Of a stretch of 64,000 nt of DNA, positions 31,734 through 60,725 are shown piece by piece. Position 1 is the stretch's first letter. Each line of letters starts with the position of its first letter. The DNA comes from Thermodesulfobacteriota bacterium. GTDB lineage: Bacteria; Desulfobacterota_D; UBA1144; Nemesobacterales; UBA2774. Where the stretch lies: positions 1 through 64,000 of the forward strand of contig BQJP01000010.1 in the NCBI GenBank assembly GCA_021604765.1, in the 5' to 3' direction. The position numbers and the translations under genes are program-made. The notes below the pieces were generated by a model that did no database searches, was not told the DNA's origin, and worked only from the letters and a program-made list of their open reading frames with translations.

Positions 31734-33215
31734 TTATTCTTCGCCTGTTTGTATATTCTCTTTAACCTCTATGTTGCTATTACTGGTCACTTCCTTCCAA
31801 TTTAAAGCTGCTGTGGTGCCCTGCCAGGCATAATCTATCGATTCACCCAGTATTCGGGCAGCCTCTTGAGGAGCGTGGAACCCCATGGAATTCTCAGCTG
31901 CGATGAAGTCAAGTCTCCATTGTGCTTTGCGTTGAAGATCAAGAGATTCTTTTAGGTCTTCGTCTGTTGCACCTTGTTCTCTAGCCAAATTGATTGCATC
32001 TAGTTGTTCCATGAGAGCAGCTCCGGCACGTTGTAGCAAATCGAAATTCCGTTGCTGGATTCCGTCCACACGCTGCTGGATCTCTTCTTCAGAGAATCTG
32101 TGACATGTTTGGCAAGCGCGGTTAATGTTGAGCAGTGGGCTTCTTACCCAATGATCCGAGACCTTGCTGGCACCATCACGCATATATGGCATGTGACAAT
32201 CAGCGCATGCTACACCGCTTCGCGCGTGAATTCCCTGACTCCAAAGTTCAAACTCAGGATGCTGTGCTTTAAGTATCTTAGCTCCAGATTCTTTATGCTT
32301 ATAGTCAAAAAATTGGTTCCCGTCAGGAAAAGTTGTTTCATCCCAGAACTCTTCAACTTCTTCAACTTTAAGACCTTTACCCCACGGAAAAGTTAATTCC
32401 ATATTGCCGCCGCAATAATATTCCACATGACACTGTCCGCAGACATATGAGCGCATTTCAGAGCGGCTCGCGTCTTCGTTTGGATCGTAGGGCTTATCCC
32501 TGGACCCTTCTCTCCATATCTCAACTGAAGGTAAGTGTGGAGTCGGAGCATCTGATGCCGCTAGTGCCTGAATACCTTTTATAAAACCTGGTCTTGTAAC
32601 CCTGAGCTCCATAGTTTCTGGTGAATGACAATCAACACAGGATACAGGGTGATCGTTGCCCGAATCCTTCAATTTTTGGTGAAGGTCTTGATATGAATAC
32701 TTGTAGGATTCCTCAAACCCCTTAAATGCATCACCGTCTCCAAGTTGTTCATATAACGGCATGATAGAGGCATGACAATGCAAACACGAACCTGATTGTG
32801 GTTTTGTTTGCCGCTCTGTCTGTTCCTGATCCTCAAGCATATAAGCATGGCCGCGGCGGTCGCGGTAGTCGATAGAGAACGCATATCCTTTGAACATACG
32901 TTTCAACCATGGATCTCTTTCTATTTTCTGTTCGGGAAGCGCTTCACTGCCCCCATGTCCTCCGAAACGGGTACGTGTTGATATACTAGTCTTCTTATAG
33001 GAGTCATATTGTTTAGGCCAGTTAGCTTTCCATTTTTCAGGGTCGGTGTCCGTTTCCGTAACTTCAACAAGACGAATGTAAGGGTTTTTGGCTTCAACTT
33101 TTCTTTCAAATATATTAAGCATCAAAGCCGCGATTCCTGCACTTAACACAGCCACTATCAACACAATAACCGCTATACCAAGTTTAGATCCTAGTTTTGA
33201 CGAAGCTCCACTCAT
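31734..33215 (-). CDS. nrfA: Ammonia-forming cytochrome c nitrite reductase (pentahaem)
   Basis: The 493-residue protein reduces nitrite to ammonia with six electrons. It carries five CxxCH haem sites: CLHCH (144-148), CVDCH (193-197), CGQCH (259-263), CADCH and CQTCH. Family active-site features include CHVEYYCGG and [17 protein letters not shown]. In most NrfA the first, catalytic haem has CxxCK; here it is CLHCH, a known minority type. The N-terminus (about 13-34) is a membrane helix that looks uncleaved. It overlaps nrfH by 4 bp and accepts electrons from it. Confidence 0.95.
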
Positions 33216-33712
33216 TGCTCAATTCCTCCTTTTTCATCAGGCCGTAGCGGGCCTCCCAGGCCCATTGGTTCTCCATGTCCTACGCTTCGGTGACATTTGA
33301 CACAGCTCGTAGCATTGGCGTCTGTTGTGCTCCCATGCGTAAGGTTTTCTATCATGCTATTATGACATTCAAGGCAGTTTTCCTGTAATATCCGGCTATT
33401 TTTTTCAGTGATTGCTATCGGTTCGTGGAAATTTTGTAGTGTAAACGCCTTGGAATGATTGTAGCCATTTTCAGCTTTAGAGATGTATTTATTAGGGAAA
33501 TTATGAGGTAAATGACACTGAACACAAGTAGCTACAGTGTGGTGGCTTGCTTTCTGCCAAGAGTCATACTGGGGTTGCATAATGTGGCAGTTTACGCAAG
33601 CTTTGGGGTCTTTACTCATATAGGAAAGCCCCTCTCCATAATAGAAGGTGAAACTTCCAAGGCCAATCAAAATCCCTACCACGATGGATAGAATTACTGC
33701 CCTCTTCTTCAT
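33212..33712 (-). CDS. nrfH: NapC/NirT-type tetrahaem quinol dehydrogenase, NrfA partner
   Basis: The 166-residue protein has one N-terminal transmembrane helix (about 6-24) and four c-haem motifs (CVNCH, CVQCH, CLECH, CVKCH). It oxidises menaquinol and passes electrons to NrfA in a membrane-bound NrfHA complex. The order nrfH-nrfA with an ATGA overlap is standard. The 363-bp region upstream is shared with the divergent beta-barrel gene. No sigma-54 promoter was seen on the nrfH side. Confidence 0.94.
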
Positions 33713-33950
33713 GATTAGTTTTGAATCCTAAAAGCTCAACCTCCGAATTAACTATGCTGTAAATTCATTTGTAAAACAAAACAGCACTATTTAATAATTC
33801 TAGAAGAGACTATATTTGAAAGAACTCGACTAGTCAAAATTGATCATTTATTAGAACATTGCAGGAAATCAATTTCTATTAACCATAACAATCTAAACTA
33901 TATAATTATTACTATATATGTAAGAAAGATTATATTTCCGTTTTGTCAGA

Positions 33951-33967
33951 TGTAATAAAATATTACA
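33951..33967. promoter_or_regulatory. Perfect palindrome, candidate activator site
   Basis: TGTAATA-AAA-TATTACA is a perfect inverted repeat (7-bp arms) in the nrfH/beta-barrel intergenic region. It lies about 90 bp upstream of the predicted sigma-54 transcription start near 34048, the usual distance for an enhancer-binding-protein site. It could equally serve nrfHA. Confidence 0.5.
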
Positions 33968-34020: not shown

Positions 34021-34037
34021 TTGGCACCCACTTTGCA
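34021..34037 (+). promoter_or_regulatory. Sigma-54 (-24/-12) promoter of the beta-barrel gene
   Basis: TTGGCAC-CCACT-TTGCA matches the consensus TGGCAC-N5-TTGCA in every position, with 12 bp between the G of -24 and the C of -12. The predicted start is near 34048, 28 bp before the ATG of the beta-barrel gene. Confidence 0.85.
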
Positions 34038-34075: not shown

Positions 34076-34927
34076 ATGTTAAGGAAAAATATCTTTGCGT
34101 ATGCGTTGTTATTGTTTTTAGCTGTGACGCTGGGCTTCAAGTCTTATGATGCTCATGCCGCAAGCGATCAGCAAATACAGGAGCTCAAACAGATGATTGA
34201 GCAGAACCAGAGGGAGAACGAGCAGAACCGCAGGCAGAATGAATTGTTGAGTGAGAAGATAGAACAGCTGGAGGCCGAAAAAGCGGCTAATCAGGCCCAA
34301 ATGCAGGAATCTGAAGCCCAAATGCAGCAGGTTGTCTCCAACCAGACGGATAAGCCTATAGGGGCTGAGTTCGCGCTTACTATTGGAGCTCAGAGTGGAC
34401 CGTTTAAAACAGGTACAGGGTTTTACATGTCAGGTGAATTGGGTCTGCCGTTATATAAGAACCTGGGACCTGGAAAACTGATGGGGTTAATTAATATCGG
34501 GTGGGCTAAAACGGATGATGACCTTACGTTTGAGCCAACTATTAATGCAGTAGCTCCCGGTGCGCTTCCAACACAAACTAGCGTTACTTTAGATACTGTA
34601 TCAATTTTGCTAGGATTAAAGTATAAAGTTGAGCAACACCACATTGTTCAACCTTATCTAGTTGCCGGACCGAGCTTTAACATATTTCTCAATAAGAGTG
34701 ACCCGGGTAGCCAGGTTGGTGGTATTGCTCCACAACCAGATAAACTTCAAAAAAATGGTTTTCCATCTGGACAAGGAAGTGCCGAGTTAGGTCTTGCCGC
34801 TGGATTAGGAGTGGATTTCAATGTTACTAAAAAGATTTTCGTAGGTGCTGAAGGTCGTTACAACTATGTCGACAGGAGTAACGGCTCATTTGGTACTTAT
34901 GGAGGAAGACTAGGATTTAGATTCTAA
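34076..34927 (+). CDS. Outer-membrane beta-barrel protein with N-terminal coiled coil
   Basis: The 283-residue protein has a signal peptide (about 1-29, ending AHA) and a Gln/Glu-rich coiled coil (about 30-92). A small beta-barrel of alternating hydrophobic strands follows, ending GRLGFRF with the C-terminal Phe recognised by the BAM machinery. It resembles OmpA/opacity-type barrels rather than a large porin. It lies upstream of the nos cluster and has its own perfect sigma-54 promoter, AAGGAGG ribosome-binding site and a strong terminator. Its role in N2O or nitrite respiration is an inference from context. Confidence 0.78.
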   Translation: MLRKNIFAYALLLFLAVTLGFKSYDAHAASDQQIQELKQMIEQNQRENEQNRRQNELLSEKIEQLEAEKAANQAQMQESEAQMQQVVSNQTDKPIGAEFALTIGAQSGPFKTGTGFYMSGELGLPLYKNLGPGKLMGLINIGWAKTDDDLTFEPTINAVAPGALPTQTSVTLDTVSILLGLKYKVEQHHIVQPYLVAGPSFNIFLNKSDPGSQVGGIAPQPDKLQKNGFPSGQGSAELGLAAGLGVDFNVTKKIFVGAEGRYNYVDRSNGSFGTYGGRLGFRF

Positions 34928-34975
34928 TTTAATTTATTCATCTTGGCTCTTCGGAGCCTCACCCCCTATATCACA

Positions 34976-35012
34976 AAGAGGGTATTCACAATGGAATACC
35001 CTCTTTTTTTTT
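34976..35012 (+). terminator. Strong intrinsic terminator after the beta-barrel gene
   Basis: AAGAGGGTATTC and GAATACCCTCTT form a perfect 12-bp stem with a 6-nt loop, followed by a run of nine T. It separates the beta-barrel gene from the nos operon. Confidence 0.93.
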
Positions 35013-35124
35013 ATGAAAACTTGACTGCAATTTCAAGAAACAGAAATATCCGGATTATTTGTCTTGTTTTCGGACACCTTACACCCCTCAAAGTTTTAAT
35101 AACTAGTAATATCAACAGTTTTGT

Positions 35125-35141
35125 CTGGCACGGGCATTGCA
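35125..35141 (+). promoter_or_regulatory. Sigma-54 (-24/-12) promoter of the nos operon
   Basis: CTGGCAC-GGGCA-TTGCA is a perfect match to the sigma-54 consensus with N5 spacing. The predicted start is near 35152, 31 bp upstream of the cytochrome c ATG. It lies between the upstream terminator and the first nos gene. Confidence 0.87.
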
Positions 35142-35182
35142 ATTATTAAGTATGTATATGATTTCTTGAAGGAGGATATGAT

Positions 35183-35578
35183 ATGAAGTCTTTTTTAGTT
35201 TTAATTCCTAGTAAATACGTTGCAATAGTTTTGATTCTCATCTTTTTAAGTTTTTCTCATTCAGTCTTTAGTAAGGAAAGTGCAGAAGCTGAAAAAGGGA
35301 AGGAGCTATTTCAGTCTAAGGGCTGTGTTGCCTGCCACACTATTGGAGGGGGCAAGCTCTCGGGTCCCGATCTTCAAGGTGTAACAGAGCGCAGAGAGGA
35401 AGAGTGGTTGAAAAAATGGATGAAATCTCCAGATACAATGGTCTTCACCGATCCAATAGCAAAAGAAATGCTTGCAGAATATATGGTTCCTATGCCGAAT
35501 CAGGGCCTAACAGACCAAGAAGTAAGTGAAGTTTATTCATATTTAAAGTTTGAGGATTCGAAGAAAAAAGAGAAATAA
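35183..35578 (+). CDS. Monohaem cytochrome c of the nos cluster (NosC-like)
   Basis: The 131-residue protein has an N-terminal signal or anchor (about 10-33) and one class I c-haem motif, GCVACHT, followed by GPDLQGV. A Met ligand lies in EYMVPMPNQGL. It is first in the nos operon, 32 bp before nosZ, and is the obvious electron donor to NosZ, as in other clade II clusters. The ribosome-binding site is GGAGG. No NosR is present in the cluster. Confidence 0.88.
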   Translation: MKSFLVLIPSKYVAIVLILIFLSFSHSVFSKESAEAEKGKELFQSKGCVACHTIGGGKLSGPDLQGVTERREEEWLKKWMKSPDTMVFTDPIAKEMLAEYMVPMPNQGLTDQEVSEVYSYLKFEDSKKKEK

Positions 35579-35610: not shown

Positions 35611-37662
35611 ATGTTAACAAAAAAAGTATTGGGATTAAGTAGTGTGGTAATTTTATTGGTGGTGGGGATTTTTATTGCCTCATGCCAAAATACCGATTCC
35701 ACAGGTGAAAACAAAGCTGAAACGAATTCTGAAGCTACTACAGCGAAACAGAATGGCAACTTATCTGCCAGCGCTGATCAGATAGCAGCAGAACGTAACC
35801 TTAGCCCAAAAGATGTGGAAGCGGCATTAAAAACATATATGCCTTCAGGGAAATACGATGATTATATAATGTTTTCCTCTGGAGGGCATTCAGGTCAGGT
35901 TTTTGTGATAGGGGTACCATCCATGCGTCTCCTTAAAGTCATTGCAGCTTTTACCCCTGAGCCGTGGCAGGGATTCGGATACGGATCGGAAGAATCCATG
36001 AAGCTTCTTGAAGACGGTAATATGGCAAGTGGTACGGAGCTCAGATGGGCAGATACACATCACCCTGCTTTGACGGAGACTGACGGTGAATATGACGGGC
36101 AGTTTTTATTCATAAACGATAAAGCCAATGCCAGGGTGGCAGTTATAGACCTTCGTGACTTTGAAACAAAGCAAATGATTAAGACTCCTAATATTATTTC
36201 AGATCACGGTTCTACTTTTGTGACTCCTAATAGTGAATATGTGATTCAGGCATCTCAATATGCAACGCCTCTTCCTTTTGAAGAATACGCTACTATGGAT
36301 GAGTATCAGGAGAAATTCCGGGGTGTAATGGCCCTTCATAAGTTTGACCGAGAAAAGGGAAGGATTGTGGAGGAAGGCTCATTTCAGATAGAACTACCAC
36401 CATATTGGCAGGATCTGTGTGATGCAGGTAAGAAAGTCAGCGATGGCTGGATTTTCTGTAATTCAATTAACACAGAACTCGCTACAGGCGGTATAGAACA
36501 GGGATTACCACCTTTTGAAGCCGGCGTGTCTCAAAGGGATATGGATTATATGCATGTCATCAACCTCAATAAAGCTGCTGAAGTTGCAAAGCAGCCCGGG
36601 AAAACCACGGAGATCAATGGTGTGAAGGTTATTTCTCTTGAAACAGCCATCTCAGAAGGTCTTCTTTACTTTATTCCAGAACCTAAGAGTCCGCATGGTG
36701 TAGATGTAGCTCCCGGTGGCGAATACTTAGTAGTTTCCGGAAAGCTAGATACACATGCTACGATTTACAGCTTTGAGAAAATACAAAAAGCAATAAAAGA
36801 TGAAAATTTTGAAGGGAATGATGTTTATGGTGTGCCAATTCTCAACTATAACGATGTTGTTGCCGCGCAGTTGGAAATTGGTTTAGGTCCGCTTCATACT
36901 CAGTTTGATGGCGACGGAAATGCTTACACGAGTGTTTTCATTGAAAGTACACTCGCTAAGTGGAAGCTAGGACCTCCTTATAACACAGGAGATGAAGCCT
37001 GGACATTGACAGAGAAAGTTCCTGTTCAGTACAACATTGGACATACTGTATGTGCCGAAGGGGATACTGTTTCTCCTGATGGTAAATACTGTGTAGCGCT
37101 AAATAAGTGGTCTATTGATCGCTTTACTAATGTCGGTCCTCTGCTACCACAAAACTTTCAGCTTATTGATGTGTCAGGCGATAAAATGCAGGTTCTCTAT
37201 GATATGCCAATTGGTATAGGAGAGCCTCATTATGTGCAGATGATTAAAGCTGACAAACTAAATCCGTTCTCTGTTTACCCGGAGGTTGGATATAACCCGG
37301 GGACAATGAGTGTAGATCCTAATGCCGCTAAAGCAGGCCAGGAAAAGATTGTTCGCTCAGACGGAAAGGTAGAGGTTTGGATGTCGGCTATAAGAAGTCA
37401 CTTTAACCCTGAACATATTACTGTCAAAGAGGGGGATGAGGTAATTCTCCACATTACAAATGTAGAGCGGGCTAGAGATGCTACACACGGCTTTGCAATC
37501 GAGGGATATAACGTAAACCTCAGCCTTGAGCCAGGTGAGGCCAACACAGTCAAGTTCAAAGCGGATCAACCAGGAGTATTCCCTTTTTACTGCTCTGAGT
37601 TTTGTTCTGCTCTCCATCTTGAGATGATGGGATATTTGCTAGTAGAGCCCAAAAATAACTAA
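35611..37662 (+). CDS. nosZ: Nitrous-oxide reductase, clade II, predicted lipoprotein
   Basis: The 683-residue enzyme reduces N2O to N2. The N-terminal part is the seven-bladed propeller that carries the CuZ site; His-rich stretches such as TDHHPA-like DTHHPA and GPLHTQF are visible. The C-terminal cupredoxin holds CuA: Cys661, Cys665, His669 and Met672 in CSEFCSALHLEM, with the first His in SHFNPEHI. The N-terminus has no twin-arginine motif. It has a Sec-type segment with lipobox FIASC (Cys25), typical of clade II. It lies in a cluster of cytochrome c, nosD, nosF, nosY and nosL. Confidence 0.96.
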   Translation: MLTKKVLGLSSVVILLVVGIFIASCQNTDSTGENKAETNSEATTAKQNGNLSASADQIAAERNLSPKDVEAALKTYMPSGKYDDYIMFSSGGHSGQVFVIGVPSMRLLKVIAAFTPEPWQGFGYGSEESMKLLEDGNMASGTELRWADTHHPALTETDGEYDGQFLFINDKANARVAVIDLRDFETKQMIKTPNIISDHGSTFVTPNSEYVIQASQYATPLPFEEYATMDEYQEKFRGVMALHKFDREKGRIVEEGSFQIELPPYWQDLCDAGKKVSDGWIFCNSINTELATGGIEQGLPPFEAGVSQRDMDYMHVINLNKAAEVAKQPGKTTEINGVKVISLETAISEGLLYFIPEPKSPHGVDVAPGGEYLVVSGKLDTHATIYSFEKIQKAIKDENFEGNDVYGVPILNYNDVVAAQLEIGLGPLHTQFDGDGNAYTSVFIESTLAKWKLGPPYNTGDEAWTLTEKVPVQYNIGHTVCAEGDTVSPDGKYCVALNKWSIDRFTNVGPLLPQNFQLIDVSGDKMQVLYDMPIGIGEPHYVQMIKADKLNPFSVYPEVGYNPGTMSVDPNAAKAGQEKIVRSDGKVEVWMSAIRSHFNPEHITVKEGDEVILHITNVERARDATHGFAIEGYNVNLSLEPGEANTVKFKADQPGVFPFYCSEFCSALHLEMMGYLLVEPKNN

Positions 37663-37754: not shown

Positions 37755-38123
37755 ATGAGAATATTGAACACATTATTAATAACCCTATTAATTCTTGGTT
37801 TTACAAATATTGCATTTGCTGCTCAGAATGAGGAAACAGCTAAGTCATGGCAAGAACAGGCGACGAGTACCAGAGCGCAGGTTATGGCAGTATACGGAGA
37901 GCTTGAAAAAACAGGTGACAAGGGCAATCCTATGGCCAAAGAACTTATCACAGACGCTGTTGCTCAGCTTGGCGAAGGGGATAAGTTTCTTAAACAAGGT
38001 GATGAAGCTATGGCCGCACAGGAGTGGGAAAAAGCCAATTATGGTTACAACATGGCATGGCAGTACTATGTAAAAGCGGCAACTGCGGGCTTAAACGCCA
38101 AAAGTATTTTAGCCGGACAATAA
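37755..38123 (+). CDS. Small helical periplasmic protein of unknown function in the nos operon
   Basis: The 122-residue protein has a signal peptide (about 1-23, ending AFAA). The mature part is almost wholly helical and Ala/Glu/Lys-rich (KSWQEQATSTRAQVMAVYGE, AKELITDAVAQLGEGDKF, GDEAMAAQEWEKANYGYNMA). It has no Cys or His, so it is unlikely to bind haem or copper by usual ligands. It resembles a single TPR-like or helical-bundle unit. It is between nosZ and the nos membrane protein and is flanked by two hairpins. The ribosome-binding site is GGAGG. I do not recognise a named family. Confidence 0.75.
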   Translation: MRILNTLLITLLILGFTNIAFAAQNEETAKSWQEQATSTRAQVMAVYGELEKTGDKGNPMAKELITDAVAQLGEGDKFLKQGDEAMAAQEWEKANYGYNMAWQYYVKAATAGLNAKSILAGQ

Positions 38124-38245: not shown

Positions 38246-38911
38246 ATGACTGAAAAACTAAAGGAAAATGAATTAATACTCGGGCCGCGCATCCCCCAAG
38301 AGCTTTGGGAAAAAGAAAAGAAGAGATTTCTCATTCCATCTATTATAATGATATTAGCAGCCTTTATACTATTTATTTCAATCTTCCTTCCTTATTGGAA
38401 ATTAACTCTTTTTGCTCCTCAATATCCTGATGGTCTTGAAGCGACAATGTACGTAAACCGCTTATCCGGAGACATTCAAGAAATAGACGGGCTTAATCAC
38501 TATATTGGTATGAAACCCATGGGCGAGGCTGCAGTTTTGGAGCGGACGCTAAGTATATTTATGATAGCGGGACTTATTTTGTTAATAGTTGGAACTCTCT
38601 TTGTACATAGTCCTTTTGCTCTATTTTTATGTATTCCAGCCATATTGTACCCGGCATTCTTTTTAGCGGATCTTTATTTTTGGATGCGGACCTTTGGAAT
38701 GAATTTAGACAGTAATGCTCCACTTAGTAATGCCATAGAGCCTTTTGTTCCGCCTTTGTTTGGTGAGGGTAAGATTGCGCAGTTTCTGACAGTCGCAAGT
38801 TGGGAGATAGGTCTCTATATGTCTTTTGCGGCTTCCATACTAATTATTGTCGGACTATACTATCACCGTAAAGCATATAAGCCACTAATCGTGGGTTCCA
38901 ACTCCAATTAG
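38246..38911 (+). CDS. Nos-cluster membrane protein with APQYP and NHYIGM motifs
   Basis: The 221-residue protein has about four to five transmembrane helices (about 28-48, 102-122, 126-148, 188-210). Its large first loop contains FAPQYPDGLEATMYVNRLSG and INGLNHYIGM-like DGLNHYIGM. I associate these motifs with membrane proteins encoded in clade II nos clusters, sometimes next to or fused with NosL. Conserved His, Tyr and Met could bind copper. It may be the NosB-like component, but this is from memory, not a search. The nosD signal peptide begins 27 bp downstream. Confidence 0.7.
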   Translation: MTEKLKENELILGPRIPQELWEKEKKRFLIPSIIMILAAFILFISIFLPYWKLTLFAPQYPDGLEATMYVNRLSGDIQEIDGLNHYIGMKPMGEAAVLERTLSIFMIAGLILLIVGTLFVHSPFALFLCIPAILYPAFFLADLYFWMRTFGMNLDSNAPLSNAIEPFVPPLFGEGKIAQFLTVASWEIGLYMSFAASILIIVGLYYHRKAYKPLIVGSNSN

Positions 38912-38938: not shown

Positions 38939-40336
38939 ATAAGACACATAATAGCTCTCTATATATTAGCGCTTATTTTCTTAACTACTATCCTGGCACT
39001 AAATGTTATGTCGGCAGAAATGGTTCACACCGTTTCTCCTGACGGGCCTTTTACTTCTATATCTTTAGCAATAGAGTCAGCAAAGAACGGAGACATCATT
39101 GAGGTAAATTCTGGCACTTATAATGAGCATGTAATTGTTGATAAGACTTTAAATCTAGTAGGTATCAATCAGCCTAAAATTGATGGGGGCGGGAAGGGAA
39201 CTGTTGTTTTGATAAAAGCCCCGGATGTTACTTTTAAAGGGTTTCATGTAAGTGGAAGCGGCGAGAGCCTGAGTGTAGAAGACACAGGAATAGTCCTAGA
39301 TTCGGCTCAAGGCTCAATTATTGAAGATAACAGTTTGGATGATGTGCTTTTCGGAATATATTTAAAAAAATCTTCGGGAACAATCATACGAAACAATAAT
39401 ATAGTAGGTAAGGATTTACCTATTGCTGTTAGAGGAGATGGTATTCGTCTCTGGTATAGCTCTGATACCAAAATACTTAATAACACTATTACCCGTGCCC
39501 GCGATCTGGTTATGTGGTGGTCGGGGGATACCTTGGTTAAGGGGAATAAAATAGAGAAGGGCAGATATGGACTCCATTATATGTACAGCAATAACAATGT
39601 TTTCGAGGACAATCTGTTTTCTGAGAATTATGTGGGTGGATTTCTTATGTATAGCAATAATATTAAATTCCAGAATAACATTTTCGCCCGCAATCAAGGG
39701 CCCGCAACAGGTTATGGAATTGGTTTTAAGGATCTTGATGACATTGTTGCCAAGGAGAACCTTTTTGTCGATAACCGAATAGGACTTTATATGGATAACT
39801 CCCCCCATTCAGTAGATTCCTGGAATACTTTGGAAGATAACGTGATAGCATTCAATGATATTGGGATATCTTTTATGCCTTCTATAGAAAGAAATATAAT
39901 TGTTTCAAATAGTTTTGTTGATAATGCAGAACAAGTTGAGGTCAGGGGAGGGGGAACACTAGCTGGCAATAACTGGTTTACTAACGGCAGAGGGAACTAT
40001 TGGAGTGATTACGTCGGATATGATGAAAATAATGATGGTATTGGGGAAATTCCCTATAAGTCTGAAAGTCTCTTTGAAAGCTTAATAGATTCATATCCTA
40101 ATTTAAGGGTATTTGTATTTAGCCCGGTGGCTCAGGCAATTGAGCTTGCCTCAGATGCTTTCCCGGTAATAAAGCCAGAGCCCAAAGTTACTGATAATTA
40201 CCCGCTTATGAATTATAAGATACCGCAGAGGTATGAAGCGGAAGAAAAGGGGTTCTCTTACAAGCTATTTGTTGTTTCATTGCTAATGGTCTTGATACCT
40301 TCTATATCATACGTATTCATCAAGAGGAAAATTTGA
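38939..40336 (+). CDS. nosD: Copper-site maturation protein NosD (apparent ATA start)
   Basis: From ATA 38939 the product is 465 residues. It starts with a textbook signal peptide (RHIIALYILALIFLTTIL, cleavage near VMSA-E) and has a right-handed beta-helix with repeated NN/SN CASH-type repeats. A C-terminal membrane helix (about 441-460) follows. NosD is a periplasmic protein needed for CuZ assembly, working with NosF and NosY. The first ATG (39008) falls after the signal peptide, and in-frame TAG 38909 excludes any upstream ATG, GTG or TTG. AAGGAG (38926-38931) is 7 nt before ATA 38939; ATT 38936 is the alternative. Confidence 0.9.
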   Translation: MRHIIALYILALIFLTTILALNVMSAEMVHTVSPDGPFTSISLAIESAKNGDIIEVNSGTYNEHVIVDKTLNLVGINQPKIDGGGKGTVVLIKAPDVTFKGFHVSGSGESLSVEDTGIVLDSAQGSIIEDNSLDDVLFGIYLKKSSGTIIRNNNIVGKDLPIAVRGDGIRLWYSSDTKILNNTITRARDLVMWWSGDTLVKGNKIEKGRYGLHYMYSNNNVFEDNLFSENYVGGFLMYSNNIKFQNNIFARNQGPATGYGIGFKDLDDIVAKENLFVDNRIGLYMDNSPHSVDSWNTLEDNVIAFNDIGISFMPSIERNIIVSNSFVDNAEQVEVRGGGTLAGNNWFTNGRGNYWSDYVGYDENNDGIGEIPYKSESLFESLIDSYPNLRVFVFSPVAQAIELASDAFPVIKPEPKVTDNYPLMNYKIPQRYEAEEKGFSYKLFVVSLLMVLIPSISYVFIKRKI

Positions 40337-40348
40337 TAGGGGTACTAT

Positions 40349-41248
40349 TTGATAAAAGTTGCTGATGTGACCAAGAAGTTCGGGAAAGTTCTGGCAGTCG
40401 ATTCTGTAACTCTAGATGTACAACAAGGAGAGTCTATAGCTTTACTTGGTGCAAATGGAGCTGGAAAAAGCACGCTTATCAAATGTATTCTGGGACTTCT
40501 TGATTATAGGGGGGAAATAGAGATTCAGGGCCACAACATTAAAGAAAATCCTAAGTTTTCAAAATCACTTATAGGATATGTACCGCAAGATCCACTTTTC
40601 TATGATATGAAAACGGTCAGCATTCTCGAGTTCTTTGGTTCTATCAGGGGAGTGGATGACAAGAGAATAAATAACCTGCTTAATTTAGTTGGCCTTGAAG
40701 ATCACAAAAATAAGCTTTCCTCTGAGCTATCCGGGGGCATGAGGCAGCGTCTATCTTTTGCAATCGGGCTACTTTCAGATCCCCCTGTCTTAATACTTGA
40801 TGAACCCACTTCAAATCTAGATGCCAATGCCAGAGGAGATTTTCTAAATCTAGTAAAGGAGCATAAGGATCAGGGGAAAACGGTTCTTTTTTCCTCCCAT
40901 AGGCTCGATGAAGTTTATTTTATTGCTGACAGGGTGCTTTTTATGAAGTCCGGGAGAGTAATCTTAGATGAAAAACCCGAAAATCTAGCTAGTTCGCTAG
41001 GAATTAAAGTAAAGATAAATCTGAGAATACCTGAGTCTAGTATAGGTGATGCAATCTCTATATTAAATAAAGAGGGTTTTGTGAGTGTAGGCAGTAACGG
41101 ATCTGGGCTTTATGTTGAAGTTGAAGAAGGCAATAGAGCTCTTCCTTTCGAAAAGCTTATTAAAAATAATATCCCGATTGAGGATTTCAGTCTTCAGGAA
41201 TCTTCGATGGAAACTGTGATTAATCATATAGAGGCAAATGGATACTAA
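40349..41248 (+). CDS. nosF: Nos ABC transporter ATP-binding protein
   Basis: The 299-residue ABC ATPase has Walker A GANGAGKST, the Q-loop YVPQDPLFYD, signature LSGGMRQRL and Walker B VLILDEPTSNLD, then the switch His in SSHRLDE. With NosY and NosD it forms the complex that supplies sulfur or otherwise matures the CuZ centre. The start is TTG, close behind GGGG. It overlaps nosY by 11 bp. Confidence 0.94.
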   Translation: MIKVADVTKKFGKVLAVDSVTLDVQQGESIALLGANGAGKSTLIKCILGLLDYRGEIEIQGHNIKENPKFSKSLIGYVPQDPLFYDMKTVSILEFFGSIRGVDDKRINNLLNLVGLEDHKNKLSSELSGGMRQRLSFAIGLLSDPPVLILDEPTSNLDANARGDFLNLVKEHKDQGKTVLFSSHRLDEVYFIADRVLFMKSGRVILDEKPENLASSLGIKVKINLRIPESSIGDAISILNKEGFVSVGSNGSGLYVEVEEGNRALPFEKLIKNNIPIEDFSLQESSMETVINHIEANGY

Positions 41249-42077
41249 AAACATATTATTGATTATGAAAAAGGAAGCTGGGGAATCACTTAAAAACAGA
41301 TGGTTTGTTCTGTACACAATCTGTTTCTCAGCTTTGGCCTTGCTCGTATTACTCTTTTCTACAATGGGAGGGGATATAGCAGGTTATTCAGGGTTTGGCA
41401 GAACGGCCGCAAGCCTTATTAATCTTGTCCTTCTATTTATTCCTTTGATAGCAATAATAACAGGCGGGGTTAGTATTTCTAATGAAAGAGAAAATGGTAC
41501 GCTCCCATATCTACTCTCACATCCTATCAGCAAGAACGAAATATTCGTAGGGAAATTTCTAGGTTTACTCATAACAATATGGTTTTCAATACTTCTGGGT
41601 TTTGGTCTTGCAGGAGTAGGTGTAGCTATAATCGGTCAGCAAGGGGATATCTCAGGCTATCTTTTAACTGTTTTACTTTCAGCACTGCTTGCGGCCTGCT
41701 TTCTGAGCATTGGTTTTCTGGTTTCCGTATATTCCGGAAAGGCATCTAAAGCAATTGGAATCTCGGTTTTTCTCTGGCTTTTCTTTATCATTCTTGGAGA
41801 TTTGGGAATTATGGGTACTACGGTTGCAATGGATTTGGGAATTAAACAGGTTTTTGCTCTTGCTTTATTAAACCCCACCGAAGTGTTTAAGGTAGCATCC
41901 GTGCTTGTGCTTAGCCCCAGGTTTGAAATTCTAGGTCCTGTTGGAGTTTATGCCATAAGGACATTCGGACAACAAGGAGTGTTCTATCTCTTGTTTAGTA
42001 TTCTGATCTTTTGGACTCTAATTCCATTGGGATATGGTTATTTGGTCTTCACGCGTTTAAGGAGGGAGGAAAAATGA
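41238..42077 (+). CDS. nosY: Nos ABC transporter permease
   Basis: The 279-residue integral membrane protein has about six helices. An ABC-2-type layout is visible: helix 1 near 20-38, then GGVSISNERENGTLPYLLSHPISKNEIFVGKF, the family motif before the helical core. It is the membrane partner of NosF. The gene overlaps nosF upstream by 11 bp and nosL downstream by an ATGA. Confidence 0.92.
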   Translation: MDTKNILLIMKKEAGESLKNRWFVLYTICFSALALLVLLFSTMGGDIAGYSGFGRTAASLINLVLLFIPLIAIITGGVSISNERENGTLPYLLSHPISKNEIFVGKFLGLLITIWFSILLGFGLAGVGVAIIGQQGDISGYLLTVLLSALLAACFLSIGFLVSVYSGKASKAIGISVFLWLFFIILGDLGIMGTTVAMDLGIKQVFALALLNPTEVFKVASVLVLSPRFEILGPVGVYAIRTFGQQGVFYLLFSILIFWTLIPLGYGYLVFTRLRREEK

Positions 42078-42526
42078 AAATGAAACTAGCTGTCTTAATT
42101 ATCTTAGTATTAGCAATTTCATGTGGGGATAAACCTGAGAGCGGGCCTGTAAAAATTTATTACGGCGAAGATATATGTGAGAGATGTAAAATGATTATAA
42201 GTGAGAAAGATTTTGCCGCTCAGTATAAATTGTCAAACGGTGAAACAGTAAAATTTGATGATCTAGGTTGCATGATTCAATACACGCATGATACTGAAAA
42301 AACTCCTATCTCTGAAGTTTATGTCGTGGATTACAGTTCAGAGGATTGGATTGATGGCCGGAAAGCATATTATATTTGGACTCAAAATATAAATACACCA
42401 ATGGGGTATGGTCTTTTAGCTTTTAAAGAAAGATTAAAAGCGGAGGATCATTCACATAAAGATAATAGTAGATATTTAGGTGGCCAGAAAGAGGCATATG
42501 ATTGGTTTTTAAGTGGAAGTAAATAA
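42074..42526 (+). CDS. nosL: NosL copper chaperone lipoprotein
   Basis: The 150-residue protein has a lipoprotein signal with lipobox LAISC, then the NosL copper-binding motif CERCKMIISEKDFAAQY and a later GCMIQY and PMGYGLLAF. NosL binds Cu(I) and delivers it for NosZ. The ATG at 42074 overlaps the nosY stop and has GGAGGGAGG upstream. A longer reading frame from 42011 lies inside nosY and is rejected. It ends 2 bp from the convergent DUF2779 gene. Confidence 0.94.
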   Translation: MKMKLAVLIILVLAISCGDKPESGPVKIYYGEDICERCKMIISEKDFAAQYKLSNGETVKFDDLGCMIQYTHDTEKTPISEVYVVDYSSEDWIDGRKAYYIWTQNINTPMGYGLLAFKERLKAEDHSHKDNSRYLGGQKEAYDWFLSGSK

Positions 42527-52084: not shown

Positions 52085-53731
52085 ATGAGAACTTTAACAA
52101 TAATTTCAGTCTTATTATATATTTTTTCTGTAAGTCCAATAGTTAAACAAGTATACGGCCATGGCTCGATGGAGACTCCATTAAGCAGAATTTATAACTG
52201 CTTTTTAGAAAATCCGGAGAATCCAAAATCAGATGCATGTAGAGCGGCAGTCCAGGTTGGTGGAACACAAGCTCTATATGATTGGAATGGAGTAAACCAA
52301 GCGAATGCCAATGATATGCATCGGGAGATTATTCCGGACGGACAACTCTGTGGTGGAGGTAAGGAACTTTTTAAGGGAATGGATCTAGCAAGGAGTGATT
52401 GGCCTTCAACCATGATTGCCCCGAACAGTAGAGGGAATTTTGAGTTTGTCTTTCTTGCAACTGCACCACATAGCACTGACTATTTCAGATTCTATGTGAC
52501 TAAAGATGGTTACAATCCACTTCAACCTCTTAAGTGGTCTGATTTGGAAGACACTCCATTTTGTACTATCAATGATGTAGTTCTTGAAAACGGAAGATAT
52601 AAAATGAACTGTCCTCTTCCTCAAGGGAAATCTGGAAAGCATGTCATATATAACATATGGCAAAGGGATGATAGTACGGAGGCTTTCTATACCTGTATTG
52701 ACGTTGAGTTTTCTGGAGGCCAGCCGGTTGTTTGGAAATCTATAGGTCAGGTGAGAGCTCAAGAGGATCTTCTAGTTGGAGATAAAGTTACATTTAGATT
52801 ATTTGATGCTCAGGGTGGTGATCTGGAAACAATTGTATTAGAGCTTCAGGACGGACAGACATTAGTAGATCAGTGGCCATTTTATTTAGCGGAGTTGGTC
52901 AATACAACTTCTTCAATTGTCAAAATTGGAGTACTAGATGCGGATGGAAATATTAACCCTATTTTCAGTTCCCAAGAAAACAATGTTTACATCTCTTCTG
53001 AAGAAGAATTTTCCTTCCAGATTGATATTGATATGGACAATAATCCGCCAGGAGATGGCCTCTCAACAGACTTATCTATAAATGAGGACTGGGGTGCGGG
53101 GTATTGTGCTGAGGTTACAGTTACTAACAATGCTCAAAGCGCCTCTGATTGGACGGTTACTTTTCCAATAGAGGGATCAATTAGGGAGATGTGGAATGCC
53201 ACATATACACAAGATGGAAGTGAAATAACTGCACAAGGTGTATCCTGGAATAATATGGTAAATCCAGGGCAATCTGTAGAGTTTGGATTTTGCGCTGATA
53301 GAGGAGCTACTCCGACTCCACCGCCACCTACACCAGCTCCAACACCGACACCGACTGATCCACCTACATTCGCATGCTCTGATGGGATTGATAATGATGG
53401 TGATAATTTAATAGATTTTCCAAATGATCCAGGGTGTGATAACGCAAATGACAATAATGAGTTTAATGAGCCTTCAGGCGGAGATGTGAGTGCGGATGTA
53501 AATATCAATGACGATTGGGGTACAGGATACTGCGCAGTAGTAACTGTTTCGAATAACAGTTCTTCTGCCGAAGACTGGATAGTCTCATTTCCTATAGATG
53601 GGAATGTTAGAAATATGTGGAGTGCTACATATCAGCAAAATGGAGATACTGTCACTGCTGAAGGAGTTAACTGGAACAATATAATTCAGCCGGGATCTAA
53701 TACTAGCTTTGGATTCTGTGCACTTAGATAA
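52085..53731 (+). CDS. Secreted AA10 lytic polysaccharide monooxygenase with two CBM2 modules
   Basis: The 548-residue protein has a 25-residue signal peptide ending VYG, so His26 becomes the N-terminal His of the copper brace. His129 (ATAPHSTDYF) is the second ligand and Phe201 (EAFYTC) the axial residue. The AA10 domain ends near 210. A GbpA-type domain follows (about 225-310), then CBM2 (about 327-412), a Pro/Thr linker, a DGIDNDGDNLIDFPNDPGC calcium-binding-like repeat, and a second CBM2 (about 462-548). It oxidatively cleaves chitin or cellulose outside the cell. No glycoside hydrolase lies beside it. Confidence 0.92.
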   Translation: MRTLTIISVLLYIFSVSPIVKQVYGHGSMETPLSRIYNCFLENPENPKSDACRAAVQVGGTQALYDWNGVNQANANDMHREIIPDGQLCGGGKELFKGMDLARSDWPSTMIAPNSRGNFEFVFLATAPHSTDYFRFYVTKDGYNPLQPLKWSDLEDTPFCTINDVVLENGRYKMNCPLPQGKSGKHVIYNIWQRDDSTEAFYTCIDVEFSGGQPVVWKSIGQVRAQEDLLVGDKVTFRLFDAQGGDLETIVLELQDGQTLVDQWPFYLAELVNTTSSIVKIGVLDADGNINPIFSSQENNVYISSEEEFSFQIDIDMDNNPPGDGLSTDLSINEDWGAGYCAEVTVTNNAQSASDWTVTFPIEGSIREMWNATYTQDGSEITAQGVSWNNMVNPGQSVEFGFCADRGATPTPPPPTPAPTPTPTDPPTFACSDGIDNDGDNLIDFPNDPGCDNANDNNEFNEPSGGDVSADVNINDDWGTGYCAVVTVSNNSSSAEDWIVSFPIDGNVRNMWSATYQQNGDTVTAEGVNWNNIIQPGSNTSFGFCALR

Positions 53732-53868: not shown

Positions 53869-55866
53869 TTATATTAAAGGAACCGTTTTCTTTTTGATTC
53901 CTAGTTTAGCCATCCTGGTGCGGAGGGTGCTTGGGTTCATGCCCAGTACTTTTGCGGCTCCACTCTCCCCATGAATCTGCCATGAAGTACTGTTTAAAAT
54001 TTTAATAATGTGATCTTTCTCGATATCCTCTAATTTCGGGGATGTATTGTTATATATATCCACTTTTTTTGAGGAATCGTATAGATCTTCACTTATGTGA
54101 AGGACGTTGCCAGTTGATAAGATAGATGCCCTTTCAATAATATTCTCAAGCTCTCTTATATTGCCAGGCCATGCATAGTTCTTCAGCTTCTTTATTGTTT
54201 CAGGGCCGATTTTGTTAAGATTTTTGCCGAGCTTGGTTGAAAATTTATTCATAAAATGATGAGCAATAAGGTCAATATCTTCTTTTCTTTCTCTAAGAGG
54301 TGGTACATCAATCGGAAATACGTTCATTCTATAAAATAGATCCGCTCGGAATTTTCCCTCATTCACCGCTTCCTCCAAGTCTCTATTGGTAGCCGCTATT
54401 ACTCTAACATTTACTTTAATAGTTTTGGTGCCACCGACTCTTTCAAATTCTTTTTCTTGCAATACTCTGAGTAGTTTTGCCTGTGATTCAAGGGGAAGGT
54501 CACCAAGTTCATCCAACATTATAGTCCCACCGTCAGCAAGCTCGAATTTTCCTATTTTTTTTGTAAGAGCACCAGTGAAAGCGCCTTTCTCATGACCGAA
54601 GAGCTCACTCTCAATCAACCCTGAAGGAATTGCCGGACAGTTAACTTTTACTAAAGGTCGGCCACTCTTTTTGCTGACGCTATGAATTGATCTTGCAATT
54701 AACTCTTTCCCAGTTCCCGTTTCCCCCCTAATCAGTACTGTCGCATCTGTCTTAGCAACCATTTGGACTTTGTCGAGTACATCTTTAAGTGATTTAGTTG
54801 CTCCTATTATTTCTTCAAAGTTGTGCTCAGTTTTTATTTCTTCTTTAAGATAAATGTTCTCCGACTCAAGTTGCTTTTTAAGTTTGTTTACTTCACTTAG
54901 AGCATTTTCAAGCTCTGATGCCTGTTTTGCATTGTTTATGGCAACCTCAATTTGCCGTGTGATTATCTCGAGTAGGTTGGTTTCATCAGTATTAAAAGCA
55001 TCTTTTTCCTTTGAATAAATGTTTATGCATCCAATTGTTCTGTCTTTTGCAGATATAGGCATAGACAAGGAGCTCATAATACCTATTTTTTTTGTTGCGG
55101 AGTTAAGGCGGGTGTCAACATCGGAGTCTTTTATATACAGAAGCTCGCCGAAATTAAGGACCATCCATGTGTGGTTCTCGGAATTTGCCAAGATTTTTAC
55201 TTGCCTGTAATAGTTGTTAGGGATACCAGAATGAGCTTTTAGGACCGCGAATTGTTTCTCAAGTATGTAAATCTCAATAGCATCTGCACATTCGACATTT
55301 GTGCTAAGAGATGAAACGGCATTATCAAGCACTTGCTGAAGCTTAATGGATTTATGGACGCTTCTAGTTACAGAGTTTATTATCTCTTCGTATCTATTCT
55401 TCTTAGAAAGTTTTTTATTGCTTTTTTTAAGTGAGTCCTCTGCATTTTTTCGATCAGTAATATCGAGCCATGTCCCTACAATTTCCACTGGTTTGCCGCT
55501 TCTTTCTTTAATTAATACAGCACGGTCTAAGAACCAATGATATTTACCATCGGAACATTTCCATCTGTATTCAATTTCAAAGTTAGTTTTGCTTGAGCTC
55601 AGGTTTACAGCATTTAGTACCTTCTCTCTATCTTCAGAGTGGATTCTGGATTGCCAGAACTCCTTATCGGCCATGAACCTATTGGCTTCAAATCCCGTTA
55701 CAATTTTTATGTTTTCACTTATATAAATGGCTCCCGACTCACCGTTTACATTTACAGCGTATACAGCCATGGGGACTGATTTTAAGATTAAAGACTGTCT
55801 GAGCTCAATTTCTTTTAGAGCTTCTTTCGATGTCTTTTTTGTAGGAGATTTTTTAGGTTTATCCAT
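53869..55866 (-). CDS. Orphan PAS-GAF sigma-54 enhancer-binding protein (FhlA-like)
   Basis: The 665-residue protein has PAS with PAC (about 25-145), a GAF domain (about 165-320), a short coiled coil, and an AAA+ domain (about 350-590). The AAA+ domain has the P-loop GETGTGKE, the sigma-54 contact motif GAFTGA, and DELGDLPLESQAKLLRVLQE. An HTH (about 625-660) binds DNA. It lacks a receiver domain, so it senses a small ligand or redox state directly. It is convergent with the LPMO. It is a candidate regulator of the three sigma-54 promoters in the window, though this is an inference. Confidence 0.92.
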   Translation of the reverse strand: MDKPKKSPTKKTSKEALKEIELRQSLILKSVPMAVYAVNVNGESGAIYISENIKIVTGFEANRFMADKEFWQSRIHSEDREKVLNAVNLSSSKTNFEIEYRWKCSDGKYHWFLDRAVLIKERSGKPVEIVGTWLDITDRKNAEDSLKKSNKKLSKKNRYEEIINSVTRSVHKSIKLQQVLDNAVSSLSTNVECADAIEIYILEKQFAVLKAHSGIPNNYYRQVKILANSENHTWMVLNFGELLYIKDSDVDTRLNSATKKIGIMSSLSMPISAKDRTIGCINIYSKEKDAFNTDETNLLEIITRQIEVAINNAKQASELENALSEVNKLKKQLESENIYLKEEIKTEHNFEEIIGATKSLKDVLDKVQMVAKTDATVLIRGETGTGKELIARSIHSVSKKSGRPLVKVNCPAIPSGLIESELFGHEKGAFTGALTKKIGKFELADGGTIMLDELGDLPLESQAKLLRVLQEKEFERVGGTKTIKVNVRVIAATNRDLEEAVNEGKFRADLFYRMNVFPIDVPPLRERKEDIDLIAHHFMNKFSTKLGKNLNKIGPETIKKLKNYAWPGNIRELENIIERASILSTGNVLHISEDLYDSSKKVDIYNNTSPKLEDIEKDHIIKILNSTSWQIHGESGAAKVLGMNPSTLRTRMAKLGIKKKTVPLI

Positions 55867-56526: not shown

Positions 56527-56982
56527 TTATAAATATTTGATGTTGAACTTTACTGATAAAGCGTTTACTTCTTCATCAGACGGCTCTCCCTTTGCGTATA
56601 GTGCCGCGAGTTCAACAAAATAGTTATCAAAAGGGCCCGGCAAGATGGTGTCAAGGAGCCTGCTTGGCTTGTCACCTTTATTTACAAACCCGTGAGGTAT
56701 TCCTCTTGGTAAAAGAGCCATTACTCCAGGGACCGCGGTCATGGTTTGGTCTCCCAGTGTGACCTCGATCTCACCATCCAGAAGATAAACAAGCTCGTCT
56801 TCATCTTCGTGGACATGGAGGGATACTCCTTTCCCAGGTGGGCTTATAATCTCAATTACAGAGAACACGCCGTTTGAATCTCCACTCTTTACCTTGTGAA
56901 GAAATTGGCTTCCGCCCATCAGTAATTCATCCCCGCCTCCTGGCATTACTAAGATCGGATCCTGCTTAAATTCGTTACTCAT
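56527..56982 (-). CDS. Cupin-2 family protein
   Basis: The 151-residue single-domain cupin has the metal motif VSLHVHEDEDELVYLLDGEIEV and a second motif GIPHGFVNKG. These give the usual His/His/Glu/His metal site of conserved beta-barrels. No signal peptide is present, so it is cytoplasmic. It opens a two-gene unit with the YHS protein. A perfect sigma-54 promoter lies 40 bp upstream. The substrate is unknown. Confidence 0.85.
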   Translation of the reverse strand: MSNEFKQDPILVMPGGGDELLMGGSQFLHKVKSGDSNGVFSVIEIISPPGKGVSLHVHEDEDELVYLLDGEIEVTLGDQTMTAVPGVMALLPRGIPHGFVNKGDKPSRLLDTILPGPFDNYFVELAALYAKGEPSDEEVNALSVKFNIKYL

Positions 56983-57021: not shown

Positions 57022-57038
57022 TGCAATGGGTGTGCCAA
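57022..57038 (-). promoter_or_regulatory. Sigma-54 (-24/-12) promoter of the cupin-YHS operon
   Basis: On the minus strand TTGGCAC-ACCCA-TTGCA matches the consensus exactly with N5 spacing. The predicted start is near 57011, about 30 bp before the cupin ATG at 56982. Confidence 0.87.
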
Positions 57039-59351: not shown

Positions 59352-60725
59352 ATGAGTTCATTAATATTGATAATAGAAGATGAAAGATTACTTTCAAAAC
59401 AATTACAAAAAGCTTTATCGCAGGAAGGATACTTTGTTATCACATCTTATGAAGGAAATGAAGGATTACAAATAGCCAAAAGGGAGAATCCCGATCTTGT
59501 TATTTTAGATCTTAAGCTTCCAGATCGTGACGGGCTTCAAGTGCTTAAAGATTTGTCGGGGTTTGATCAGATGCCGCCTACAATTATGATGACAGCTCAT
59601 GGCAGTGTTGAGGTTGCGGTATCGGCAATAAGGGACGGTGCCTATGATTTCATTGAAAAACCTTTTCCACTCGACAAATTAAAGGTAATGGTAAGAAACG
59701 CTCTTAGAATTAGGGAGCTCGATAATAGTCTTAGCGCAGTAGCTATGAGAGCTCAGGTGAAATACGGATTTGATTCACTTATAGGTAAAAGCGAGACTAT
59801 AAAAGAGATAATAGATTTATTTAAGAAGCTTACGGAAACCGATCCTAAGACAATACTTATTCGAGGAGAAAGCGGGACAGGTAAGGGGCTAGCTGCTAAA
59901 GTTCTACATTTTAACGGGTTAAGAAAGTTGAGTCCGTTTATCGAATTGAACTGTGCTGCAATTCCTGAAACTCTTTTAGAGAGCGAGCTTTTCGGACATG
60001 AAGCTGGTGCGTTTACTGACGCAAAAAAACTAAAGAAAGGAATATTGGAGCAAGCAGACGGAGGCACAGTTTTTCTTGATGAGATTGGTGATATGAGTCT
60101 TTCTCTCCAAGCTAAGCTTGTTAAGGCGGTAGAAGAAAGGAGCTTCAGAAGAGTAGGGGGGGCTAGGGATATAACGGTGGATATATGTGTTATGGCTGCT
60201 ACTAATCACGATCTCAAATCGCTTGTTAAAAATGGCGGTTTTAGAGAAGATCTCTACCACCGCTTAAATGTGATAAATTTTGAAATGCCATCACTAAGAG
60301 ACAGAAAAGAGGATATTCCTCTTATTACAGATTATTTCATTTCCTATTTTAATGTCGATCTCAATAAGAATATCAACATTATTCCTTCAGAGGTGAGAAA
60401 GACCTTCTTGCATTATGATTGGCCCGGCAATGTCAGGGAGTTAAGAAGTACTATTGAAAGAGCCGTACTCCTTAGTGAAGATGGGTTGTTAAACCCAAAA
60501 TATGTAAAGCTTGAAGAAGGTGATGATCTGAAGGTGCAGGACGGCGATGATAAGATGGTTATTGATGTGCCGCTTGACGACGCATCACTTTACAAAATTG
60601 AAAGAAAAGTTATAACTAAAGCACTGGACTTGCATAACTGGAACCAGACAAGAACTGCTGAAATGCTTGGGATAACGCGTGAAGTGCTTCGCTATCGTAT
60701 GAAGAAATGGGGTCTCCTGAGCTAA
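59352..60725 (+). CDS. NtrC-family response regulator with GAFTDA motif
   Basis: The 457-residue protein has a receiver domain (1-125; phosphoacceptor Asp in LVILDLKLPDRDG), an AAA+ domain (about 140-370), and a Fis-type HTH (about 415-455). The P-loop is RGESGTGKG and Walker B VFLDEIGDM. The sigma-54 contact loop reads GAFTDA instead of GAFTGA, a variant also seen in other NtrC-like regulators. It is paired with the kinase upstream and is 13 bp before cstA, which it probably controls in response to starvation or carboxylate. Confidence 0.93.
   Translation: MSSLILIIEDERLLSKQLQKALSQEGYFVITSYEGNEGLQIAKRENPDLVILDLKLPDRDGLQVLKDLSGFDQMPPTIMMTAHGSVEVAVSAIRDGAYDFIEKPFPLDKLKVMVRNALRIRELDNSLSAVAMRAQVKYGFDSLIGKSETIKEIIDLFKKLTETDPKTILIRGESGTGKGLAAKVLHFNGLRKLSPFIELNCAAIPETLLESELFGHEAGAFTDAKKLKKGILEQADGGTVFLDEIGDMSLSLQAKLVKAVEERSFRRVGGARDITVDICVMAATNHDLKSLVKNGGFREDLYHRLNVINFEMPSLRDRKEDIPLITDYFISYFNVDLNKNINIIPSEVRKTFLHYDWPGNVRELRSTIERAVLLSEDGLLNPKYVKLEEGDDLKVQDGDDKMVIDVPLDDASLYKIERKVITKALDLHNWNQTRTAEMLGITREVLRYRMKKWGLLS

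Follow-up and report, generated by a model that had tools for sequence, protein, structure and literature searches.

A putative sigma-54 regulon joining a clade II nos operon to a cbb3 oxidase in Candidatus Dadabacteria, with low oxygen as its most likely signal

Clade II N2O reducers constitute an important biological sink of N2O. To our knowledge, the switching of clade II nos genes is known in few lineages, where it operates through FNR/Crp-type proteins. The nos genes have been placed in the DNR and NnrR regulons and, in Neisseria, under NsrR, and thus under FNR-type regulators or NsrR and not under sigma-54 (PMC1274295). NorR, a NO-responsive sigma-54 activator, serves NO removal (PMC1274295). 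For the clade II nosZ of Nitrosophilus labii, regulation by the Crp/Fnr family, without sigma-54, is what the accessible part of the source proposes (PMC11539149). We found no description of sigma-54-driven nos in the open-access literature searched, which does not by itself prove that none has been published.

Two oxygen-responsive systems are of particular relevance here. In Bradyrhizobium diazoefficiens, low oxygen, perceived by the heme kinase of the FixLJ-FixK2 cascade, is the main inducer of nos, and FixJ acts through the CRP/FNR-type FixK2 (PMC5582078). FixJ, the partner of FixL, is of the NarL type. In Myxococcus xanthus, the accessible part of the report on NmpRSTU describes an oxygen-linked two-component pathway, arranged as a multi-kinase phosphorelay whose first kinase needs heme, that leads to an NtrC-like regulator and sigma-54 (PMC11841059). 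The targets named in that part include a P-type ATPase gene followed by a cbb3 oxidase, as well as a hemerythrin gene and the regulator's own operon; the NmpR site reads GCGCA-N5-TGCGC and occurs twice, usually at a distance of 14-15 bp (PMC11841059).

The window analyzed in the present work is a stretch of 64,000 bp (G000:C10:1-64000) from a metagenome-assembled genome of 3.4 Mb in 173 contigs, hereafter G000. The closest relatives of its NosZ, at 81-90% identity, are found in the MAGs Deltaproteobacteria OFTM111 and OFTM235 and Candidatus Dadabacteria UBA2774, and the group name Dadabacteria is used here on the basis of these relatives. A preliminary description of this DNA had recognized a clade II nos operon, and the family score of NosZ agrees (Table 1), the protein remaining under the cut-off of the TAT-type family TIGR04244. 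The gene order also follows the clade II layout, with nosD, nosF, nosY and nosL downstream and a gene for a membrane protein, orf4, after nosZ; since orf4 matches no family, it is a candidate NosB by its position only. The ATG of nosC is closely preceded by GGAGG. The listed reading frame of nosL overlaps nosY, and its real start is probably located further inside.

Table 1. Features of the nos region and of the candidate regulatory pair (window positions unless another contig is given).
Feature	Position	Strand	Remarks
Reversed copy of putative activator site, TGTAATATTTTATTACATCTGACA	33944..33967	-	53 bp before omp -24 element; matrix score 30.3
Sigma-54 -24/-12 element of omp, TTGGCACCCACTTTGCA	34021..34037	+	exact consensus
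omp, outer-membrane beta-barrel (porin-like) protein	34076..34927	+	Pfam OMP_b-brl
Intrinsic terminator between omp and nos	34975..35006	+	13-pair stem with T run
Putative upstream activator site of nos, TGTCTTGTTTTCGGACACCTTACA	35060..35083	+	41 bp before -24 element; matrix score 29.3
Sigma-54 -24/-12 element of nos, CTGGCACGGGCATTGCA (CTGGCAC-N5-TTGCA)	35125..35141	+	top score in window, 14.0 (consensus-weighted scan)
nosC-like c-type cytochrome, operon gene 1	35183..35578	+	Pfam Cytochrom_C; position kept in relatives
nosZ, clade II (Sec-dependent) N2O reductase	35611..37662	+	TIGR04246 855 bits, cut-off 625
orf3, conserved small protein of nos operon	37755..38123	+	no Pfam or NCBIfam match
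orf4, conserved membrane protein at NosB position	38246..38911	+	no Pfam or NCBIfam match
nosD	39008..40336	+	TIGR04247 422 bits, cut-off 300
nosF (ABC ATPase)	40349..41248	+	Pfam ABC_tran
nosY (ABC permease)	41238..42077	+	Pfam ABC2_membrane_2
nosL	42011..42526	+	Pfam NosL
PAS-GAF-AAA-HTH sigma-54 activator with GAFTGA	53869..55866	-	rejected as nos activator
NtrC-type response regulator with GAFTDA	59352..60725	+	rejected as nos activator
PAS histidine kinase, two PAS domains, FixL-like	G000:C16:33891-35438		
NtrC-type response regulator, 452 aa	G000:C16:35438-36793		receiver, AAA+ with GAFTGA, Fis-type HTH (Pfam + sequence)

The sigma-54 element that had been reported between the terminator and the first nos gene is present in the sequence. 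It fits the TGGCAC-N5-TTGCW consensus, with GG at -24 and GC at -12, and ends 41 bases before the nosC ATG; the transcript is predicted to start around 35150-35152. The window holds three exact matches to TGGCAC-N5-TTGC (34022, 35126 and, on the minus strand, 57037), about 50 times the 0.06 predicted from base composition, and each of them lies upstream of a gene, at most about 60 bp from its start codon. The genome encodes RpoN (Sigma54_DBD, 184 bits) with an intact RpoN box, ARRTVAKYR. Inspection of the region 5' of nosC in relatives, as had been suggested along with the promoter, revealed that the element is widely kept. Twelve related nos loci were fetched and, with the window, 11 show this region: a -24/-12 element scoring at least 10.5 is found 34-125 bp from nosC in ten of the 11 (window included), the sole exception being G016.

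When the same ten operons are aligned on the -24/-12 element, a second element, absent from the preliminary description, becomes apparent 41-43 bp further upstream. Its full consensus is TGTC[AC]GATTTTCTGACATCTGACA, in which the half-site TCTGACA occurs three times in the order inverted, direct, direct. Both window copies, before nos and before omp, stand far above any other position in the window (matrix scores of 29.3 and 30.3 vs at most 5.1), bearing in mind that the matrix was built from 44 sites including these two. The promoter and the site also precede more diverged nosZ operons (NosZ about 50% identical) in G026, G028, G030 and G034, the promoter of G026 preceding a TetR gene placed ahead of nosZ. 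With a loose pattern derived from the nos sites, a related genome gives as many as 18 matches, vs 0-4 with the reversed form. The site is found across the phylum: a strict pattern, searched in 58 genomes, yielded 64 matches confined to 15 genomes, and its reversed control yielded none. The site was not found at the nos loci L005-L013, L026, L027, L032 and L034, which come from outside the phylum, nor did the literature searched contain a regulator described for this three-half-site element.

The association of this site with sigma-54 promoters extends beyond nos. Within 20-120 bp of strong sites, a -24/-12 element scoring at least 11.5 is found in 83% of cases vs 10% of control positions 5' of ORFs, and one scoring at least 10.5 in 93% vs 13.5%. 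The distances from site to -24 element fall into classes of 40-44, 51-55, 60-63 and 70-77 bp for co-oriented sites and of 48-55, 63-66, 73-76 and 84-85 bp for reversed sites, those beyond 70 bp being less certain because the sets are score-thresholded and include some weak promoters. These distances display a period of 10.5-11 bp (Rayleigh p about 1e-7 or lower) that persists when the first class is removed (p about 0.001-0.003 and 0.0005-0.001), which is the pattern expected from an activator needing one face of the helix.

In G000, the sites precede nos, omp, a ccoI-cbb3 cluster, a universal-stress-protein operon and an operon encoding a GNAT protein, a histidine kinase and an NtrC-type regulator. 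The ccoI target encodes a copper-type P-type ATPase and is followed by a cbb3 oxidase (ccoNO fusion) and then by further cytochrome c and ccoG-like genes; the universal-stress-protein operon includes a c-type cytochrome, and the regulator operon continues with cupin and CBS genes. In relatives, the sites are found ahead of genes for ccoI (ccoI-type ATPases in G002, G003 and G004), Hsp20, a Zn-dehydrogenase, hemerythrin, FeoB, NuoA, a c-type cytochrome, CBS proteins and universal stress proteins, among others. A few of these targets, such as acyl-CoA ligase and the CBS proteins, are not oxygen-specific. Assignment to a PEP-CTERM/PrsR regulon was considered and rejected: the targets lend it no support, and the regulator, at 360 bits, stays under the PEP_resp_reg threshold of 502.6.

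Since nos and the high-affinity oxidase share a promoter type and a site, one FixL-like sensor and one NtrC-like activator probably switch both on. We consider it likely that nos belongs to a sigma-54 regulon controlled by the kinase-regulator pair of contig C16, with low oxygen as the most likely signal. The PAS kinase would phosphorylate its NtrC-type partner. This regulator would occupy a single face of the DNA at the 24-bp site TGTCAGA-N3-TCTGACA-TCTGACA, which precedes the -24 element by 41 bp or by that distance plus at least one helical turn. From there, it would open the sigma-54 polymerase at nosC, omp, ccoI-cbb3, the universal-stress-protein genes and its own GNAT-kinase-regulator operon, so that low oxygen would turn on N2O respiration and high-affinity oxygen respiration together. 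Less firmly, we lean towards the broader proposal that Candidatus Dadabacteria possess a direct sigma-54 low-oxygen regulon, in which a single FixL-like kinase and an NtrC-type regulator acting on a three-half-site element control N2O reductase and cbb3 oxidase jointly, with no FNR/Crp step. If so, N2O reduction would be part of a low-oxygen programme in this uncultured group, and nos expression could do without a nitrogen-oxide signal. With the site defined and the regulator named, the proposal can be tested in the absence of a cultured organism.

NmpRSTU, as an experimentally tested precedent, and FixLJ-FixK2 render such a scheme plausible, the difference from the latter being the route directly through sigma-54. 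By analogy, the regulon would work like NmpRSTU, as far as the accessible part of that report describes it, without being classed as an NmpR member. Both systems count a cbb3 oxidase with a P-type ATPase among their targets, the site and a -24/-12 element preceding ccoI here, with ccoNO next. In contrast to the two-copy NmpR site, the site presented here has three half-sites; one kinase takes the place of a phosphorelay; and nos is a target, whereas it does not appear among those named in the part of the NmpRSTU report at hand (PMC11841059). The likeness to FixLJ-FixK2 concerns low oxygen and the proposed sensor; here, however, the kinase partner is NtrC-type instead of NarL-type and would act directly through sigma-54 instead of through a FixK2-like intermediate (PMC5582078). 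NorR is similar as a sigma-54 activator in nitrogen-oxide metabolism, although sigma-54 was not the assignment made for nos itself (PMC1274295), and N. labii shares the clade II operon but, in the accessible text, not the sigma-54 route (PMC11539149).

The nature of the signal is the part of the proposal with the most serious competitor. Of the two PAS domains in the kinase, the first gives its best structural alignment with the FixL heme-PAS domain (E 4e-14), and the positions of the FixL heme histidine and gate arginine are occupied by H and R in every ortholog covering them. The two residues are also shared by common PAS domains without known heme binding. The kinase reaches 193 bits against the FixL NCBIfam, whose cut-off is 850. 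Because the histidine and the arginine are shared with PAS domains of unknown ligand, we infer oxygen sensing mostly from the targets. These can also be read differently: universal stress proteins, Hsp20, CBS proteins, GNAT acetyltransferases and acyl-CoA ligase would suit a general energy-stress programme in which promoter and site are real and the kinase senses NO, redox or energy status, and heme binding is deduced from two residues only. We regard this reading as the less likely one, since ccoI-cbb3, hemerythrin, NuoA, FeoB and nos indicate oxygen and respiration, and the best matches of the PAS domain among solved structures are FixL. Low oxygen thus stays the most likely signal. In G009, G018 and G028, additional PAS-like regions precede the kinase core, and the sensor may therefore differ in these genomes.

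As for the regulator, the C16 pair, located outside the window and on another contig than nos, is the best candidate for nos control and would act on the whole regulon instead of nos alone; this choice follows from co-occurrence, adjacency to omp-nos and the site 5' of its own operon. Orthologs of the regulator are found in 19 relatives at 64-90% identity, with identity falling to about 45% in the next homologs. Each of the 15 strict-site genomes carries the pair or part of it, and the strict site occurs in none of 35 genomes devoid of the pair (Fisher 1.6e-8). This co-occurrence is confounded by phylogeny, and a weaker correlation is seen for the window regulator 59352 too. In G012, G013 and G022, which carry sites and seemingly missed the regulator, either the kinase or a regulator fragment at a contig end was found. 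Exceptions exist on both sides: G025 has the regulator and lacks the site by the patterns used, and in G008, which is 77% complete, there are two loose sites and the pair was not found. The pair adjoins omp-nos in G006 and G010 and omp in G003, G005 and G009, omp itself adjoining nos and/or the regulator in G002, G003, G005, G006, G009 and G010. A site is located directly 5' of the pair's own operon in G000, G002, G003, G004, G005, G030 and G032; in G026 and G034, one is found roughly 0.8 kb ahead of the GNAT gene.

It could be argued that another enhancer-binding protein binds the site and that the C16 pair is simply a frequent member of the regulon. The genome encodes ten clear sigma-54 activators, of which the co-occurrence test covered three, and shared ancestry inflates the correlation. 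Against this stand the autoregulation signature of the C16 operon, its adjacency to omp-nos in several genomes and the joint losses: G001, of the same genus, has neither pair nor site, and G016 carries a frameshifted candidate regulator (G016:C30, L165:3365-4692) while its nos operon lacks both the sigma-54 promoter and the site. We therefore judge a different activator to be improbable.

The window itself encodes two sigma-54-type activators, as the preliminary description had noted, and both are present in many nos-bearing relatives. Their proposed role in nos control is nevertheless very hard to sustain. The response regulator 59352 carries GAFTDA instead of GAFTGA and is thus probably not a sigma-54 activator; moreover, it is present in the site-less G001 and G029 and went undetected in G004 despite two sites there. 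No ortholog of 53869 was detected in G003, G006, G015, G026 and G030, all of which have sites. What is well supported in the original suggestion is control of nos by sigma-54 and an enhancer-binding protein, instead of by FNR/Crp or NosR, as argued by the conservation, the phased site and the lack of an FNR-like box near nos; what is not borne out is the hint at these two proteins. The 59352 regulator is 79-95% identical within the family, and its gene follows one for a HAMP histidine kinase and precedes a CstA gene.

Loose -24/-12 matches with two mismatches number 41 in the window vs 38 expected from a dinucleotide-preserving control, so that a loose match alone is weak evidence; a chance or secondary nos element, with transcription from a sigma-70 or FNR-type promoter, is nonetheless highly improbable given the conservation, the phased site, the lack of any FNR-like box (TTGAT-N4-ATCAA, at most one mismatch) in the region around nos (window 27.1-45.6 kb) and the lack of any sigma-70-like match between the terminator and nosC.

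Some relatives appear to possess an additional control. The palindrome TGAGTGAGCGCTCACTCA is located 5' of the activator site in G007, G009, G015, G018 and G022 (L050, L047, L053, L051 and L049, respectively), and TetR-family genes are found beside nos in G022 and G026 (L119:7216-7869). Together, they suggest a second, likely repressing, layer on nos in those relatives; it was not seen at the window nos operon or in its genus.

Further observations concern the neighbours of nos in the window. Genes resembling nrfA and nrfH (31734-33712, minus strand) are arranged head to head with omp-nos. The reversed site faces them, but a -24/-12 element is absent on that side (best score 7.5), and nrfHA was rejected as a regulon member; without a sigma-54 element facing nrf, nitrite ammonification and N2O reduction are neighbours and not evidently co-regulated. 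A lytic polysaccharide monooxygenase of the LPMO_10 type with GbpA_2 and CBM_2 domains (52085-53731, plus strand) is an unexpected presence beside respiratory genes. The third exact -24/-12 element (57022-57038, minus strand) precedes a cupin gene (56527-56982, minus strand), where the nos-type site is absent and a palindrome, AAGCAACTTGCTT, is found upstream. This promoter belongs to another system, and the PAS-GAF activator 53869 encoded next door is a natural candidate for its control.
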